Below, in pieces: positions 44,418 to 52,952 of a DNA stretch of 64,000 nt. Source of the DNA: a virus; IMG/VR virus record IMGVR_UViG_3300046804_002325, positions 1-64,000 of that record; one strand, written 5' to 3'. The notes below the pieces were generated by a model, which saw nothing but the letters and a program-made list of their open reading frames with translations, was not told where the DNA came from and did not search any database. A program made the position numbers and the translations under genes. The stretch's first letter is position 1; each line of letters begins with the position of its first letter.

Positions 44418-44999
44418 TTACAAATCCTTAATCAAAATTATCTTTTTGTTTTCACCTGTTGGTTTAACAAATAATTCTTTCAGTTCTTCACCTGTGTGCC
44501 ATTTCATAGAAGATGACTTGTGTGCAGGAAGTCCAGCAGTTTCACCGATTTGTTTCCAATTATCGGCCAAATATACTGCACCGTTTTTACCTGCACCCAC
44601 AAAGGTGATTATACACCTAAGGTCATCACCATATTTTTCTTTCCATGCACCTGGTGCTTTCTGTCTAAGTTGTTTCAATACTTGCGTGCCAGCATTTTTG
44701 ATTCTTTTACTGAAACAGAAACGCCAGTTGTTGGCAATACTATTGAAAGCCACTTTATATTCTTGCTTAGACATGCCAAGATGCCGCAGTATATCCTTTG
44801 GTGGTGGATATACAGACGAACCAAGGCCAATCATGCCAATACATTCAGGCAGAACCATATCTTCTTCTTGGTGATATATCAACCAATCTATTCTACGGCC
44901 AACGGAAGAATTCGTAGGTACATATGAATGATTGTTTTCAATAATATTCTTCACCAGTTCTTTTTGTTCTGGTGTTTTCACTTGCATCAATTCAATCAT
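44418..44999 (-). CDS. Mom-like DNA-modification protein (GNAT-related)
   Basis: The product has 193 residues. Characteristic blocks are NNHSYVPTNSSVGRRIDWLIY, IGMIGLGSSVYPPP, SIANNWRFCF, GTQVLKQLRQKAPGAWKEKYGD, and GAVYLADNWKQIGETAG. The order of NN-x-RF, YG, and x-NW-x-x-x-G-x-T-x-G is that of the Mom / DUF4338 superfamily. Mu Mom modifies adenines to protect phage DNA from restriction, and its chemistry needs acyl-type transfer; that function is inferred here. It is inserted between gp33 and gp59, with an ATGA overlap with gp33. A general GNAT enzyme is the main alternative. Confidence 0.55.
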   Translation of the reverse strand: MIELMQVKTPEQKELVKNIIENNHSYVPTNSSVGRRIDWLIYHQEEDMVLPECIGMIGLGSSVYPPPKDILRHLGMSKQEYKVAFNSIANNWRFCFSKRIKNAGTQVLKQLRQKAPGAWKEKYGDDLRCIITFVGAGKNGAVYLADNWKQIGETAGLPAHKSSSMKWHTGEELKELFVKPTGENKKIILIKDL

Positions 45000-45776: not shown

Positions 45777-46328
45777 TTAGAAACTAAAACCCAAACCAAC
45801 GCCAAATGCGTTCTCTTTGATGGTTTGACCAGAACGGCTTGCGTTCAAGTTAAATGCAACATTCTTAGCAACTGGAATGCTGTATGTAGCGAAACCAACT
45901 GTTTGCTTAGTGCGAGCGCCGTGTTCGGTAGAACCAACACGAGTCTTAACACCAGTCAACAAGAAACCTGGACCTGCTTTCAATCCATAGGTTGCACCAA
46001 CAAGACCATAGTTATATGCAGTACCACCATTGAATCCATTGTCATGGCCAACACCAACGAATGGTGTTACACCTGCAACATTGAATTTGTTGTTTGCTGC
46101 TGTAACTTCAACACTAGATAAAATACCTGAGTTGTCTTTCATTGTAGCGGTACGACCTTGTAGGCCATACTGGATGCCACCAATTTCTTTACCAGCACGG
46201 ATATATTGTGCTGTGCTGTCTTTTGCGCCGTTACGACCCAATACATTATCAACATCAACAGAAACATAGTCTGCTGCTGATGCGGCGAATGCCAAAGAGG
46301 CCAAAGTTGCGAATAAGATTTTCTTCAT
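45777..46328 (-). CDS. Phage-encoded outer-membrane beta-barrel protein
   Basis: The product has 183 residues. A clean signal peptide (MKKILFATLASLAFAASA, cleaved before AD) precedes a mature region of about 165 residues of alternating amphipathic strands with turns (VGATYGLKAGPGFLLTG, KNVAFNLNASRSG) and a C-terminal GVGLGFSF ending in Phe, the signal for outer-membrane insertion. The length fits an eight-stranded barrel. Lambda Lom and related phage barrels are precedents. A role in superinfection exclusion, lysis or surface change is speculative. It starts the endolysin operon and is divergent from the endonuclease gene. Confidence 0.75.
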   Translation of the reverse strand: MKKILFATLASLAFAASAADYVSVDVDNVLGRNGAKDSTAQYIRAGKEIGGIQYGLQGRTATMKDNSGILSSVEVTAANNKFNVAGVTPFVGVGHDNGFNGGTAYNYGLVGATYGLKAGPGFLLTGVKTRVGSTEHGARTKQTVGFATYSIPVAKNVAFNLNASRSGQTIKENAFGVGLGFSF

Positions 46329-46403
46329 TAAAACTCCTAGTTGTTAAACATAGTAGTAGGCTTATTCTGTTACTGGGAAAACCTACGAGCAAACCCTGTA
46401 AAT

Positions 46404-46421
46404 GCAAACTTAAAAGTTTGC
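46404..46421. repeat. Inverted repeat GCAAACTT-AA-AAGTTTGC in a divergent intergenic region
   Basis: An 8-bp perfect palindrome with a 2-base centre lies between the barrel gene (minus) and the endonuclease gene (plus), 37 bases before the latter's ATG. It may be an operator or mRNA hairpin. Neither flank has a T-tract strong enough for a terminator. Confidence 0.5.
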
Positions 46422-46457
46422 GTTTACTATATACATTATATATCTTGGAGGATTATA

Positions 46458-46847
46458 ATGCAATACTTTTTATACATCTGGTACGACAAATGCCGAAAAA
46501 TGTTCTATGTTGGTATGCATGAAGGAAACATAACCGATGGTTATATATCTTCATCACGTTGGTTCAATGGAGAACACCAATACAGACCTAACGACTTCAA
46601 ACGTAAAATAATCAAAACCTTTAATGATAGGAAGACAGCCAGAAAAGAAGAGGCTAGATTTCTTCGCATGATTAAAGAATCTGAGTTTGGTAAAAAATAC
46701 TACAATCTCAAAAATGGCAGGCCAGTTGGAACTGAACCTTGGAACAAAGGCAAGAAAAACATTTACTCACAAGAAACTTTACAAAAAATGTCAATTGCTA
46801 GACTTGGTAAACCATCAAACAATCAACACACCAAAAAGACAGTTTAA
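46458..46847 (+). CDS. GIY-YIG-like / NUMOD3 homing-endonuclease-type protein
   Basis: The product has 129 residues, starting at the ATG at 46458, which has a GGAGG Shine-Dalgarno 7 bases upstream; a longer in-frame opening has no RBS. The N-terminus (FLYIWYDKCRKMFYVGMHEG) matches the short YIG-like strand of GIY-YIG-related phage endonucleases, and the C-terminus has a NUMOD3 DNA-binding repeat (EPWNKGKK, YSQETLQKMSIARLGKPS). Free-standing homing endonucleases cut cognate phages at or near their own locus. Its 3' end reaches into the terminator hairpin of the convergent tmRNA gene. Confidence 0.6.
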   Translation: MQYFLYIWYDKCRKMFYVGMHEGNITDGYISSSRWFNGEHQYRPNDFKRKIIKTFNDRKTARKEEARFLRMIKESEFGKKYYNLKNGRPVGTEPWNKGKKNIYSQETLQKMSIARLGKPSNNQHTKKTV

Positions 46848-46870
46848 TTCTGTTACGAGGATAAACTGTC
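46838..46870 (-). terminator. Terminator at the 3' end of the tmRNA gene
   Basis: Nine-base perfect stem GACAGTTTA / TAAACTGTC (46862-46870 and 46838-46846). On the minus strand it is followed by TTTTTGG, the layout of an intrinsic terminator. It overlaps the last codons and stop of the convergent endonuclease gene. Confidence 0.75.
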
Positions 46871-47072
46871 AAAAACCCTAGTGCCTCAATTAGGCAGCAA
46901 TGCGGTAACTTTCGTCATTTGCATTTACTTTGATTTAGTTTTTATATCTTCTCTGATAAGTTGTCCACTTCTATACTCTTTACCCTGTCGAAACCATGGC
47001 ATCCCCATCAAAAACAAACTTCGACCGTTTAAGGTGGCCAACTCCTATCCCGTTAGAGTGGAAGAATGTTTT

Positions 47073-47136
47073 TGGTGGAGATGGGGGGAGTCGAACCCCC
47101 GTCCAGAATACTTTTCAAGTTGCTTCATACAACCAT
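47073..47136 (-). ncRNA. tmRNA acceptor piece
   Basis: It contains the P2 3' strand, the T-arm with stem GGGGG/CCCCC and loop TTCGACT, the acceptor strand CATCTCC, the discriminator A and an encoded CCA. Predicted length is about 64 bases, set by the promoter and the CCA end. Confidence 0.8.
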
Positions 47137-47142
47137 ATAAGG

Positions 47143-47171
47143 ATTATATATCATTCTTTGTAATTTGGCAA
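47143..47171 (-). promoter_or_regulatory. Sigma70-type promoter of the tmRNA gene
   Basis: Minus-strand TTGCCA (47171-47166), a 17-base spacer and TATAAT followed by CC (47148-47143). This is the same motif found before the early genes at 60371 and 61340. Predicted transcription start is about 47136. Confidence 0.75.
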
Positions 47172-47184
47172 CACCAAATTTTAC

Positions 47185-48081
47185 TTATACCAGTTTCATA
47201 CAGGCAACTGTGTCCGCATGAGTGATATTGAATAGTCGTTTAGTTTGTTTTGTTGATATATCAAAACTGGCAACGAAACAATTATTCATTTCAACAATAC
47301 CATGTGAATAGTGGTTGGAACCGATAAAAATTATTTTACCGTCTAATGCATCCATACCACGCAAGAATGTTTTTAGTTTTTTAACAACTTTATATTGTGA
47401 TGTTTGTCGTGTGGCCAAATCAATTTCAATAATATGACCCGTAGAAGTTGATAATGAATATAGTTTATTGTCTATAATTTGCAAATCATGGCAACCAGCA
47501 CCAGCTGATCCAATCATTGTGTGTTCACCTGTGGCTTTATTCAAATAACCAAATTCTGAAGGCCTCACACTTAAATTGTTTAGGCAAAAATAAATTTTTC
47601 CTTCATGTTCTGTTATAGAATTTAGGTGTGTAATGTCATGGCTCTCAGCTGCATCTGGATGTTCAGGTGCTTCAACCCATTCAAAAGAAACGACATTAAA
47701 ATATTTGTTTGTTTTGCCATGGACACCAATTGTATTGACTGATGTATGTGTCACATAAAAGTCATCACCACTCTTTAACATTCTATGTGTGTTAATATAC
47801 ATTGATATGCCAACTAATCCACAATACTCAAAAGTTTTTCTATCATACTTTGCAATTTTTTTATGTGAGGCAATGTATATGTAATCATCATCATATGTTA
47901 TGCCATAAGGTCTAAAAGTTGGTCTACCTTGACCTTCCAATTCTTTACAATCTAAATCAGGATTGTATGGACTTTTGTGTATTAAATTTCCATTTTCAAA
48001 ATCATATACAAGAAATGTGTAGTTATGTTTTTTGTGATAATGGTCATCAGGTACAATAATTATCAATTTCTCATTCGTCAT
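47185..48081 (-). CDS. Beta-propeller-like protein
   Basis: The product has 298 residues from the ATG at 48081; a TTG three codons upstream is an alternative start. Repeating strand patterns of about 40 residues (FRPYGITYDDDYIYIASHKKI, HLNSITEHEGKIYFCLNNL, DLQIIDNKLYSLS, GMDALDGKIIFIG) suggest a five- to six-bladed propeller. An HDITHLNS segment is notable. No signal peptide is visible. It follows the 2OG oxygenase gene with a six-base gap and may act with it or be a virion protein. Function unknown. Confidence 0.55.
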   Translation of the reverse strand: MTNEKLIIIVPDDHYHKKHNYTFLVYDFENGNLIHKSPYNPDLDCKELEGQGRPTFRPYGITYDDDYIYIASHKKIAKYDRKTFEYCGLVGISMYINTHRMLKSGDDFYVTHTSVNTIGVHGKTNKYFNVVSFEWVEAPEHPDAAESHDITHLNSITEHEGKIYFCLNNLSVRPSEFGYLNKATGEHTMIGSAGAGCHDLQIIDNKLYSLSTSTGHIIEIDLATRQTSQYKVVKKLKTFLRGMDALDGKIIFIGSNHYSHGIVEMNNCFVASFDISTKQTKRLFNITHADTVACMKLV

Positions 48082-48086
48082 ATCAA

Positions 48087-48647
48087 TCAACGATTAAATG
48101 GCAACATATTAATATTTAATACAAGTCTCTGTGGTGTTTTAATGGGTGACGATTTTGCATGAAAGATTCTACCCTTCCACCAAACCAATCGTCCTTTTTT
48201 GGGTGTAAGTCTCTGAGCAACTTTTCCATTTTCATCAAAGAAATAGGTATCGCCGTCAGAGTCATTCACATAATAGATTGCTGTTAGTTGTTCTTCAAAA
48301 GCATTATCAATATGTGGTGTATGGTATCTGTCACCAAATCGTGTGTCGAGTGTATTCAGATTAACCTTACAACGGAGTATATAACAATCCTCATCAAGCG
48401 TTTCAGTTAGTTTATTTGTAACTGGTGAGACTACATTGTAATGTTGTGAATTTATTTTTCCATCTATAACAAACATATGAAAAAATTGTGGCACATCGAG
48501 AGCATTACTATCTGGCATTACAGTATCGGTGATATCTAAATGAACAGACTCAGTACTATAAAAATAGGGGAAATTTGTTCCCGTCAATATTTTTTCTATC
48601 TCATCTTGAACACGAGGTTTAACAAAATCATCAATTATATTTAACAT
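48087..48647 (-). CDS. 2-oxoglutarate/Fe(II)-dependent oxygenase
   Basis: The product has 186 residues. It has the prolyl-4-hydroxylase-like core: HTPHIDNAFEEQLTAIYYVND supplies the H-x-D facial pair, GRLVWWKGRIFHAKSS the distal His, and PQRLVLNIN the 2OG-binding Arg. Enzymes of this type are common in T4-like aquatic phages, with substrates rarely known. The gene lies between a glycine-rich fibre and the beta-propeller gene, so a fibre or propeller target is conceivable. That is inference. Confidence 0.8.
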   Translation of the reverse strand: MLNIIDDFVKPRVQDEIEKILTGTNFPYFYSTESVHLDITDTVMPDSNALDVPQFFHMFVIDGKINSQHYNVVSPVTNKLTETLDEDCYILRCKVNLNTLDTRFGDRYHTPHIDNAFEEQLTAIYYVNDSDGDTYFFDENGKVAQRLTPKKGRLVWWKGRIFHAKSSPIKTPQRLVLNINMLPFNR

Positions 48648-48663
48648 TATAAAATCCTAAAAA

Positions 48664-49626
48664 TTAAAAAGTAAGGTACTGCGAACTTGATGTGAAGGTA
48701 TGGTAGTATCTATATGTAGCACCTGGACCTCCACTGCCGTTAACAAATGTGACAGAACCACCCGACATAAGTTGGAAGTCCCATTGATATGAAACTATCA
48801 CGATACCTTGATAACCGTAAGTTGCATCTAGGCCGCCGTTTCTACTTGAAGCACCACTACCTCCGCCGCCGTAGTAAAATGCGTTTTGACCTGGTCCAGT
48901 ACCACCACCACCTATGCCGCCAGCACCACCATATGAATTACCACCGCCGCCAGCATAATATATTCCGTTTATCCATTGTCTACCTGGACCGCCATTGATA
49001 CCTGAGCCTGCACCACCTGCACCGCCACCAGAACCAGAATAATAACCACCAGCATTACCATAAGCTGGTTGATTGCCATAATCACCACTTGTTGGATTTG
49101 GTTGTATTGAATTACCTGATGCAGCATTACCGCCTCTGGTACCGGCACCGCCGCCTCCTGAACCACCATCAAAACCTGGTTGACCATCAGATCCACCACC
49201 CATGCCACCACCATAAGCAGTGTATCCAAAAGCTAAAGTATCTCCACCACTACTTTGATAACCACCCGAACCAATAATGAATGTGTATGATCCTTTAGGC
49301 AAATTAAAAGTTGCATCAACTACGCCACCAGCACCGCCGCCACCGTTCATAGCGTTATTATCACCAGAATAACGGGAATGTCCACCGCCGCCTCCACCGA
49401 CTATCAATGCTCTAACAGATAAAGATGTGGGAATCTGTTTAGATCCATAAAAAGTACTGAGACTTATTTGACCCGAAGTTGGTAAAGAGTTGTTGTTTAC
49501 ATTTATCGTGCCGTTAGGAACAATACCACCATTCATGTAGTATTCGTTTATTCCAATAGGATTTGAACCACCGAATTCGTTTTGTAAATCATAAAAACTT
49601 ATAGCACCACTTGATGGTAAAGCCAT
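48664..49626 (-). CDS. Glycine-rich fibre/adhesin protein
   Basis: The product has 320 residues. The N-terminus (LPSSGAISFYDLQNEFGGSNPIGINEYY) is a widespread N-terminal domain of phage structural proteins. Residues about 70-270 are very Gly-rich with GGGGG and GGAGGxGGGG runs, resembling polyglycine-II tips. The C-terminal 50 residues (WDFQLMSGGSVTFVNGSGG) form a small beta domain. It is far from the main fibre operon and starts a three-gene unit with the oxygenase and the propeller. Confidence 0.7.
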   Translation of the reverse strand: MALPSSGAISFYDLQNEFGGSNPIGINEYYMNGGIVPNGTINVNNNSLPTSGQISLSTFYGSKQIPTSLSVRALIVGGGGGGHSRYSGDNNAMNGGGGAGGVVDATFNLPKGSYTFIIGSGGYQSSGGDTLAFGYTAYGGGMGGGSDGQPGFDGGSGGGGAGTRGGNAASGNSIQPNPTSGDYGNQPAYGNAGGYYSGSGGGAGGAGSGINGGPGRQWINGIYYAGGGGNSYGGAGGIGGGGTGPGQNAFYYGGGGSGASSRNGGLDATYGYQGIVIVSYQWDFQLMSGGSVTFVNGSGGPGATYRYYHTFTSSSQYLTF

Positions 49627-52301: not shown

Positions 52302-52952
52302 ATGGAAAAAATAAAATACCAAATAAATTACCACTTTTATAACCGTTATGTATCATTTATACAACACTATAAACAAAATCCAATGGAAGGTTTTTGTGAG
52401 AAACACCATATTGTTCCGAGGTGTATGGGTGGAAATGATTCTGTGGATAATTTAATATTAATCCCTGTAAGGGTACATTTTATATTACACTTTTTATTAT
52501 ACAAATCTTTTCCAGACAACAAAAAATTAGCTCATGCATTTTCTATGATGGCAGTAAATAATAAACACCAAAATAGGAAAATTTCATCCAAGATGTATGA
52601 ATTGACCAAACTAGCCAGGTCAAATGCTTTAAGAGGTGTTTCTAGGCCAGAATATGTTAAAGAAAAATTGAGAGTGCCGAAAAAGAACAAAGATAATTAT
52701 AAAAAACCCAAATCACAACTACATGCACAAAATATTTCAAATTCTCTTAAAGGAAAGAAAAAGAGTGATGAACATATAAAAAATATGATTTTGGCCAAAC
52801 AAAATGAATATAAGAGAAGATCCGAAGAAATGGAAGAAAGAAAAAAACATTATAGAAACCTTTTTATTGAAAGTGGTCTCAGTAGAAAAGATTTCTTTAT
52901 GTTGTATAATCTAAATCCAAATACAGGAAAAAGATATTTACGAGGACTATAA
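52302..52952 (+). CDS. HNH homing endonuclease with NUMOD3-like repeats
   Basis: The product has 216 residues. The HNH core is CEKHHIVPRCMGGNDSVDNLILIPVRVHFILHFLL (HH near residue 34, N near 48, H near 58). A NUMOD3-like repeat follows (HAQNISNSLKGKKKSDEHIKNM), and the C-terminal YNLNPNTGKRYLRG looks like a DNA-binding helix. It is the only plus-strand gene in the 48-64 kb block, inserted inside a divergent promoter. It is free-standing, and a nicking or cutting site in cognate phages is expected. Confidence 0.75.
   Translation: MEKIKYQINYHFYNRYVSFIQHYKQNPMEGFCEKHHIVPRCMGGNDSVDNLILIPVRVHFILHFLLYKSFPDNKKLAHAFSMMAVNNKHQNRKISSKMYELTKLARSNALRGVSRPEYVKEKLRVPKKNKDNYKKPKSQLHAQNISNSLKGKKKSDEHIKNMILAKQNEYKRRSEEMEERKKHYRNLFIESGLSRKDFFMLYNLNPNTGKRYLRGL

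Follow-up and report, generated by a model that had tools for sequence, protein, structure and literature searches.

A predicted homing endonuclease adjoins a permuted tmRNA gene in a T4-like phage and may have supplied its tag and 3′ domain

What sets the permuted tmRNA gene of a T4-like phage apart, the gene itself or the DNA that adjoins it? The question is raised by a window of 64,000 nucleotides, positions 1 to 64,000 of a virus contig of 176,978 bases (IMG/VR record IMGVR_UViG_3300046804_002325). A sequence-only reading of this stretch had proposed a complete, circularly permuted tmRNA gene on the minus strand at 46838-47136 and had called its presence on a T4-like genome unusual. The phage assignment held: the record encodes a capsid protein of the T4 gp23 family (E = 1e-142) together with baseplate, gp33, gp59, gp32, and phoH genes, the gp33, gp59, and gp32 genes neighbor the tmRNA, and no match to an integrase was found in the record. 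The record also contains 28 tRNA genes, representing all 20 amino acids, at about 120.8-126.9 kb, outside the window and far from the tmRNA.

The tmRNA gene was examined with the Rfam tmRNA models, a check that the sequence-only reading had itself suggested. RF04321 (tmRNA_permuted) matched positions 46890-47134 of the minus strand with 126 bits at a cut-off of 47 (E = 3e-24); the model was covered end to end, positions 1-213 of 213, with the acceptor half first. RF01850 (beta_tmRNA) scored 115.6 bits at a cut-off of 84, but the final hairpin of that model is not formed. ARAGORN called a permuted tmRNA with the tag ANDESYRIAA at the locus. The match is far above chance, and the tmRNA is real. 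The folding energy of the sequence was not separable from that of shuffles (-35.5 versus -32.8 +/- 3.9) and was dropped as evidence for the tRNA domain, shuffled sequences being equally good; because it does not distinguish the tmRNA, the evidence for the gene consists of the covariance models and the pair changes described below. As a probe for the host, the beta_tmRNA model was above its cut-off in 1 of 369 genomes (class of a Marinomonas genome), a result that led to no host assignment. The exact T-arm was rejected as a guide to lineage, the identical stretch occurring in many phyla and carrying no information on the host.

Every element of the proposed gene was found on the minus strand where the sequence-only reading had put it. 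The acceptor piece, the tRNA-like 3′ piece with the T-arm, occupies 47073-47136 (exact 5′ end estimated) and closes with an encoded CCA at position 47073, whereas the mRNA-like coding piece occupies 46838-47006 (exact 3′ end estimated) and starts with GGGGATG at 47006. Between them lies a spacer (47007-47072) that varies among relatives in length, from for example 26 to 200 nucleotides, and in sequence; by analogy with known permuted tmRNAs, it would be expected to leave the precursor. Within the coding piece, the tag reading frame ANDESYRIAA-stop spans 46890-46922 on the minus strand, in agreement with ARAGORN and the tags of relatives, and a 3′ hairpin, GACAGUUUA(UCCUCGUAACAGAAU)UAAACUGUC, spans 46838-46870.

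Acceptor and coding pieces were then aligned across 72 distinct permuted tmRNAs, most of which come from phage contigs. The 7-bp acceptor stem that the sequence-only reading had described was upheld, as all seven pairs are standard wherever both sides are present and the two pieces covary, with changes on both sides at pairs 4 (CG/UG/GC) and 5 (UA/CG/GC). The alanine signal G3·U70, which in the window accompanies the 7-bp stem and the encoded CCA, is kept in 71 of 71 relatives. The 7-bp P2 helix of the same reading, GUAUUCU/AGAGUAU, did not fare as well: although it is the sole uninterrupted one by energy, its pairs are standard in between 18/54 and 64/71 sequences and are unsupported by pair changes. 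The conserved register is instead a P2 of 5 bp, UAUUC/GGGUA (standard in 67-71 of 72), with an outer stem, GGUUGU/ACAACU, that is mostly preserved (56-67 of 72). An ACUU/AAGU pairing was rejected, being absent from relatives. A group of seven phage tmRNAs (L134, L144, L145, L157, L160, L167, and L197) has the T-loop UGCGAAU instead of UUCGANU, a change at a second position that is normally fixed.

The hairpin at 46870-46838 had been taken for a terminator. In relatives it is a conserved stem with covarying arms and a common loop, UCCUCGUAACAGAAU or UCCUUAUUACCCAAU, and since most of them lack the U-run behind it, we regard it as a structural 3′ stem of the tmRNA and not primarily as a terminator. 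A terminator scan of 46300-47700 returned no terminator-like site. In the window, the U-run doubles as the coding sequence of an antisense gene, to which we return below.

How uncommon is such a gene? Of 120 IMG/VR loci drawn by a single tmRNA core pattern, 55 carried a permuted tmRNA according to ARAGORN, cyanophage-like loci included, and in 30 of these 55 those neighboring genes that were found form a subset, by order and strand, of the gene order in the window (phoH, PD-(D/E)XK nuclease, tmRNA, cell-wall hydrolase, gp33, gp59, gp32). Permuted tmRNAs were also present in 22 of the best 80 PhoH relatives, many of which are truncated. A permuted tmRNA was reported in 2022 for the OM43 (Methylophilales) phage Melnitz, in a study that also counted 53 two-piece tmRNA structures among publicly available phage genomes and found one on 17 of 47 related contigs (PMC9004378). 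In both Melnitz and the Pelagibacter phage Mosig, the tmRNA is annotated on a T4-like genome between the PD-(D/E)XK nuclease and gp33, as in the window, so the description as unusual does not stand. These phages differ from ours in having no annotated homing endonuclease or second 3′ end, and their tmRNAs were tied to Alphaproteobacteria (PMC9004378), whereas in the window the older lineage model with a score above its cut-off is beta_tmRNA. The window tmRNA as such belongs to an already known type of phage gene, one that is positionally conserved in many uncultured T4-like phages and is no curiosity.

Several observations were made alongside this survey. Synechococcus phage BUCT-ZZ01 (ON615601.1) has a permuted tmRNA called by ARAGORN, with the tag ANDETFSMALAA, that is unannotated in its record, and Stenotrophomonas phage Yut2 has one inside a tRNA array, with called ends that overlap the flanking tRNA genes. 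Within the window, three minus-strand genes (DUF4915-like, 2OG-Fe oxygenase, and glycine-rich) lie between the nuclease and the tmRNA at 47185-49626; this block is missing from the HEG-free sister phage described below, L137, and portions of it are present in L133 and L134. A PHROG assignment of 48087-48647 (minus strand) to endonuclease V (phrog_274) was set aside as possibly mistaken, since the Pfam 2OG-Fe(II) oxygenase match is above cut-off. Flanked by the genes for gp33 and gp59, 44418-44999 (minus strand) encodes a phage protein with a Pfam match to DruA of the Druantia defence (E = 3e-10).

The uncommon parts of the locus, which the sequence-only reading overlooked, lie at and beyond the 3′ end of the tmRNA. 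A plus-strand gene at 46458-46847, for a protein of 129 residues, is antisense and tail-to-tail with the tmRNA and overlaps its 3′ stem, the complement of which supplies the final codons of the gene. The protein matches a PHROG homing endonuclease (E = 2e-11), with weak Pfam matches to GIY-YIG and NUMOD3 that are both below cut-off, and an alignment of 24 sequences contains 24 invariant residues. A sequence search against the PDB yielded nothing relevant; the top three PDB fold matches of its AlphaFold model are all I-TevI, at weak E values of 0.05-0.2. The gene is accordingly predicted to encode a free-standing GIY-YIG homing endonuclease (HEG). A second homing endonuclease gene is found about 5 kb from the tmRNA, at 52302-52952 on the plus strand (PHROG, E = 2e-36).

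A scan of viral contigs, the source of most sequences in these comparisons being metagenomes, revealed 56 relatives of the HEG. Among the 44 relatives at 53% identity or above, 38 have a permuted tmRNA called next to them; of the other six, two lie on contigs that end too soon (L372 and L403) and four gave no call (L405, L406, L408, and L409). The remaining 12, more distant relatives have no called tmRNA at their side. An ARAGORN tmRNA call with an HEG nearby was obtained for 31 loci, and in every one of them the HEG runs antisense and lies 3′ of the tmRNA. The relatives sit flush with the tmRNA in other phages as well, and their insertion position is constant, the empty-site allele being that of L137, a sister phage whose PhoH and gp32 are 98% and 97% identical to those of the window.

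What lies on the far side of the HEG? Past its start, at 46427-46356, the minus strand reads GTAAACGCAAACTTTTAAGTTTGCATTTAC-AGGGTTTGCTC-GTAGGTTT(TCCCAGTAACAGAAT)AAGCCTAC, which resembles a degenerate tag start followed by a second 3′ stem. The tag-like part (46398-46427) shows partial similarity to the native tag start of L137, GTAAACGCAAACGATGAAAAGTTCGCATT, and the hairpin (46356-46386) corresponds to a native tmRNA 3′ hairpin. From the loop of this relic stem through the leader of the next gene, 57 of 64 positions match L137, in which the native tmRNA is intact, without an HEG, and runs directly into that same leader. Similar remnants occur elsewhere: the HEG-bearing locus L402 keeps TTCGCATTGGCAGCCTAA (FALAA-stop) plus a complete old 3′ domain, and old tag ends are retained in the HEG-bearing loci L413, L411, and L404. 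When all loci were searched for a second 3′ loop 300-1000 nucleotides past the tag start, it was found in 23 of the 31 HEG-bearing loci and in none of 68 others. The eight HEG-bearing loci without it by the motif used include some contig ends, and others look degenerate.

The relic could conceivably be a second, alternative terminus of the tmRNA gene, which would then yield two forms of the RNA, and the relic hairpins of many loci do still pair well. Most loci, on the other hand, lack an intact tag in the relic region, the antisense HEG separates the two ends, and the preserved pairing can be accounted for by recent insertion or by service as a homology arm; we give this explanation almost no weight. 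Read from its sequence, the locus combines a tmRNA anatomy, an antisense HEG on the 3′ stem, and a degenerate second tag and 3′ stem, with an HEG-free sister for comparison.

The similarity of the window tmRNA to its relatives switches at the tag. In the stretch of the coding piece that precedes the tag, identity is 94% to L137 and 67% to the HEG-bearing L376; in the stretch that starts with the tag and closes with the 3′ stem, it is 70% to L137 and 97% to L376. The HEGs of the window and L376 are 87% identical, and just past the region upstream of the HEG the similarity to L376 drops to about 60%, near background. These identities indicate that the 5′ part of the window tmRNA is joined to a foreign tag and 3′ domain. 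For the ten HEG-bearing tmRNAs that have a close HEG-free neighbor in the 5′ part, the 3′ parts are 47-70% identical (10 of 10 at 70% or less), compared with 51-100% for 39 HEG-free tmRNAs, 24 of which are at 76% or above (p = 1e-4, a value that ignores relatedness). Similarity of the 3′ parts of tmRNAs whose 5′ parts differ was discarded as a mobility test, being equally common with and without an HEG (12/190 versus 119/1830).

Of 57 close pairs of HEG-free phage tmRNAs, 23 also show mosaicism of the 5′ and 3′ parts, so this HEG is not necessarily what drives the exchange, which can take place where no HEG resides or through HEGs that were later lost. In a rival account, an ordinary phage tmRNA lies next to an ordinary intergenic, free-standing HEG, the tags differ by general recombination, and the second stem arose by tandem duplication or is a hairpin of unrelated origin. 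Free-standing HEGs between genes are indeed normal in T4-like phages (PMC2988022). Yet the second 3′ domain is confined to loci with the HEG in the counts given above, it resembles the 3′ end of the native gene in the HEG-free sister and continues into the same leader, old tag codons survive in some relics, and the tag, 3′ domain, and HEG form one sharp-edged block of high identity. We regard the rival account as unlikely. It is probable, judging from these sequence comparisons, that a functional-looking permuted tmRNA has had its tag and 3′ domain replaced by an HEG cassette.

Does the tmRNA still look functional? Among 39 distinct 10-residue tags, residues 1, 2, 9, and 10 are invariant despite the use of several codons, and this pattern of fixed residues and varied codons indicates that the tag is selected as a peptide. 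Directly upstream of the gene, at 47143-47171 on the minus strand, lies a predicted sigma70-type promoter, TTGCCA-17-TATAAT, with 11 of 12 matches to the consensus, which ends about seven bases ahead of the RNA; equivalent TTG[AC]CA/TATAAT-like pairs are aligned in L137, L138, L016, and L139. The promoter would be consistent with early transcription of the tmRNA by the host polymerase. The tmRNA could instead be a decaying or inactive copy that persists solely as the site that the HEG targets and lands in, and its tag does have an unusual C-terminus, RIAA; distinct tags from HEG-bearing loci seldom end in [FYWL]ALAA, 2 of 12 versus 24 of 42 others (p = 0.02, again ignoring relatedness). Such decay is, however, very improbable given that the helices, CCA, G3·U70, tag frame, and 3′ stem are all intact, that acceptor pairs 4 and 5 show paired, two-sided changes relative to the sister L137, and that the promoter-like site is intact. 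No match to smpB was found in the record, so the action of the tmRNA would depend on host SmpB. Ribosome rescue or retagging during infection is plausible.

We hypothesize that replacement of the tag would proceed as follows. During co-infection, the HEG would cut HEG-free tmRNA genes within or close to their tag region, and repair would copy the donor block of tag, 3′ domain, and HEG into the recipient, with the conserved 5′ part of the tmRNA and the retained old 3′ domain serving as homology arms. The donor 3′ end would keep the tmRNA working, while the recoded tag sequence would let the new allele escape cutting. The sigma70-type promoter of the tmRNA would drive its transcription, host tRNA enzymes would cut the RNA in two, and G3·U70 would direct its charging with alanine; with host SmpB, the tmRNA would then free stalled ribosomes and add (A)ANDESYRIAA. 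More generally, we lean toward the view, with somewhat less assurance than for the window itself, that the comparative data reflect a family of self-restoring homing cassettes that are specialized for phage tmRNA genes, in which a GIY-YIG HEG brings its own tag and 3′ domain and overwrites the recipient tag, the RNA stays functional, the old 3′ domain acts as a homology arm, and recoded tags resist re-cutting. If the cassette interpretation is correct, selfish DNA sets the degradation tag of a phage rescue RNA, and sister phages that differ mainly in the tag and 3′ domain constitute a natural experiment on tag function.

Permuted phage tmRNAs are published and widespread; what is new at this locus is the putative homing cassette that abuts one. 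Among titles, abstracts, and open-access papers on tmRNA together with homing endonucleases, only introns or incidental mentions came up, and in open-access text we found no report of such a cassette in a tmRNA or of a tag swapped in this way. Three known systems nevertheless share parts of the design. Genomic islands in tmRNA genes (Islander, PMC4383910) likewise restore the gene and leave a displaced fragment at the far end, but they use tyrosine integrases, for which the window record has no match, whereas the element in the window consists of one small gene, for an endonuclease, and appears to replace the tag as well. The free-standing seg and mob endonucleases of T4 include small GIY-YIG enzymes of T4-like phages, and their homing with co-conversion of flanking markers (PMC2988022) is a precedent for the cassette; they are reported to lie between genes or to split genes, and the sections of that source on these enzymes describe no substitute gene end. 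The nearest published design is that of the fungal mitochondrial mobile ORF, or mORF, hybrids (atp6, atp9, cox2, and nad3; PMC3630166), in which an endonuclease and a substitute 3′ end are inserted in a gene and the native 3′ end stays beyond, closer to relatives than the substitute. The order in the window is the same: substitute 3′ end, endonuclease, and native 3′ end matching relatives. The fungal hybrids involve mitochondrial protein genes, with the endonuclease often in phase or co-transcribed, whereas the window has a phage RNA gene with an antisense endonuclease. By this analogy, the locus would work like a mobile-ORF hybrid outside the reported set, since no mitochondrial protein gene is involved, and homing that replaces the end of a gene would extend from fungal mitochondria to a phage RNA gene.
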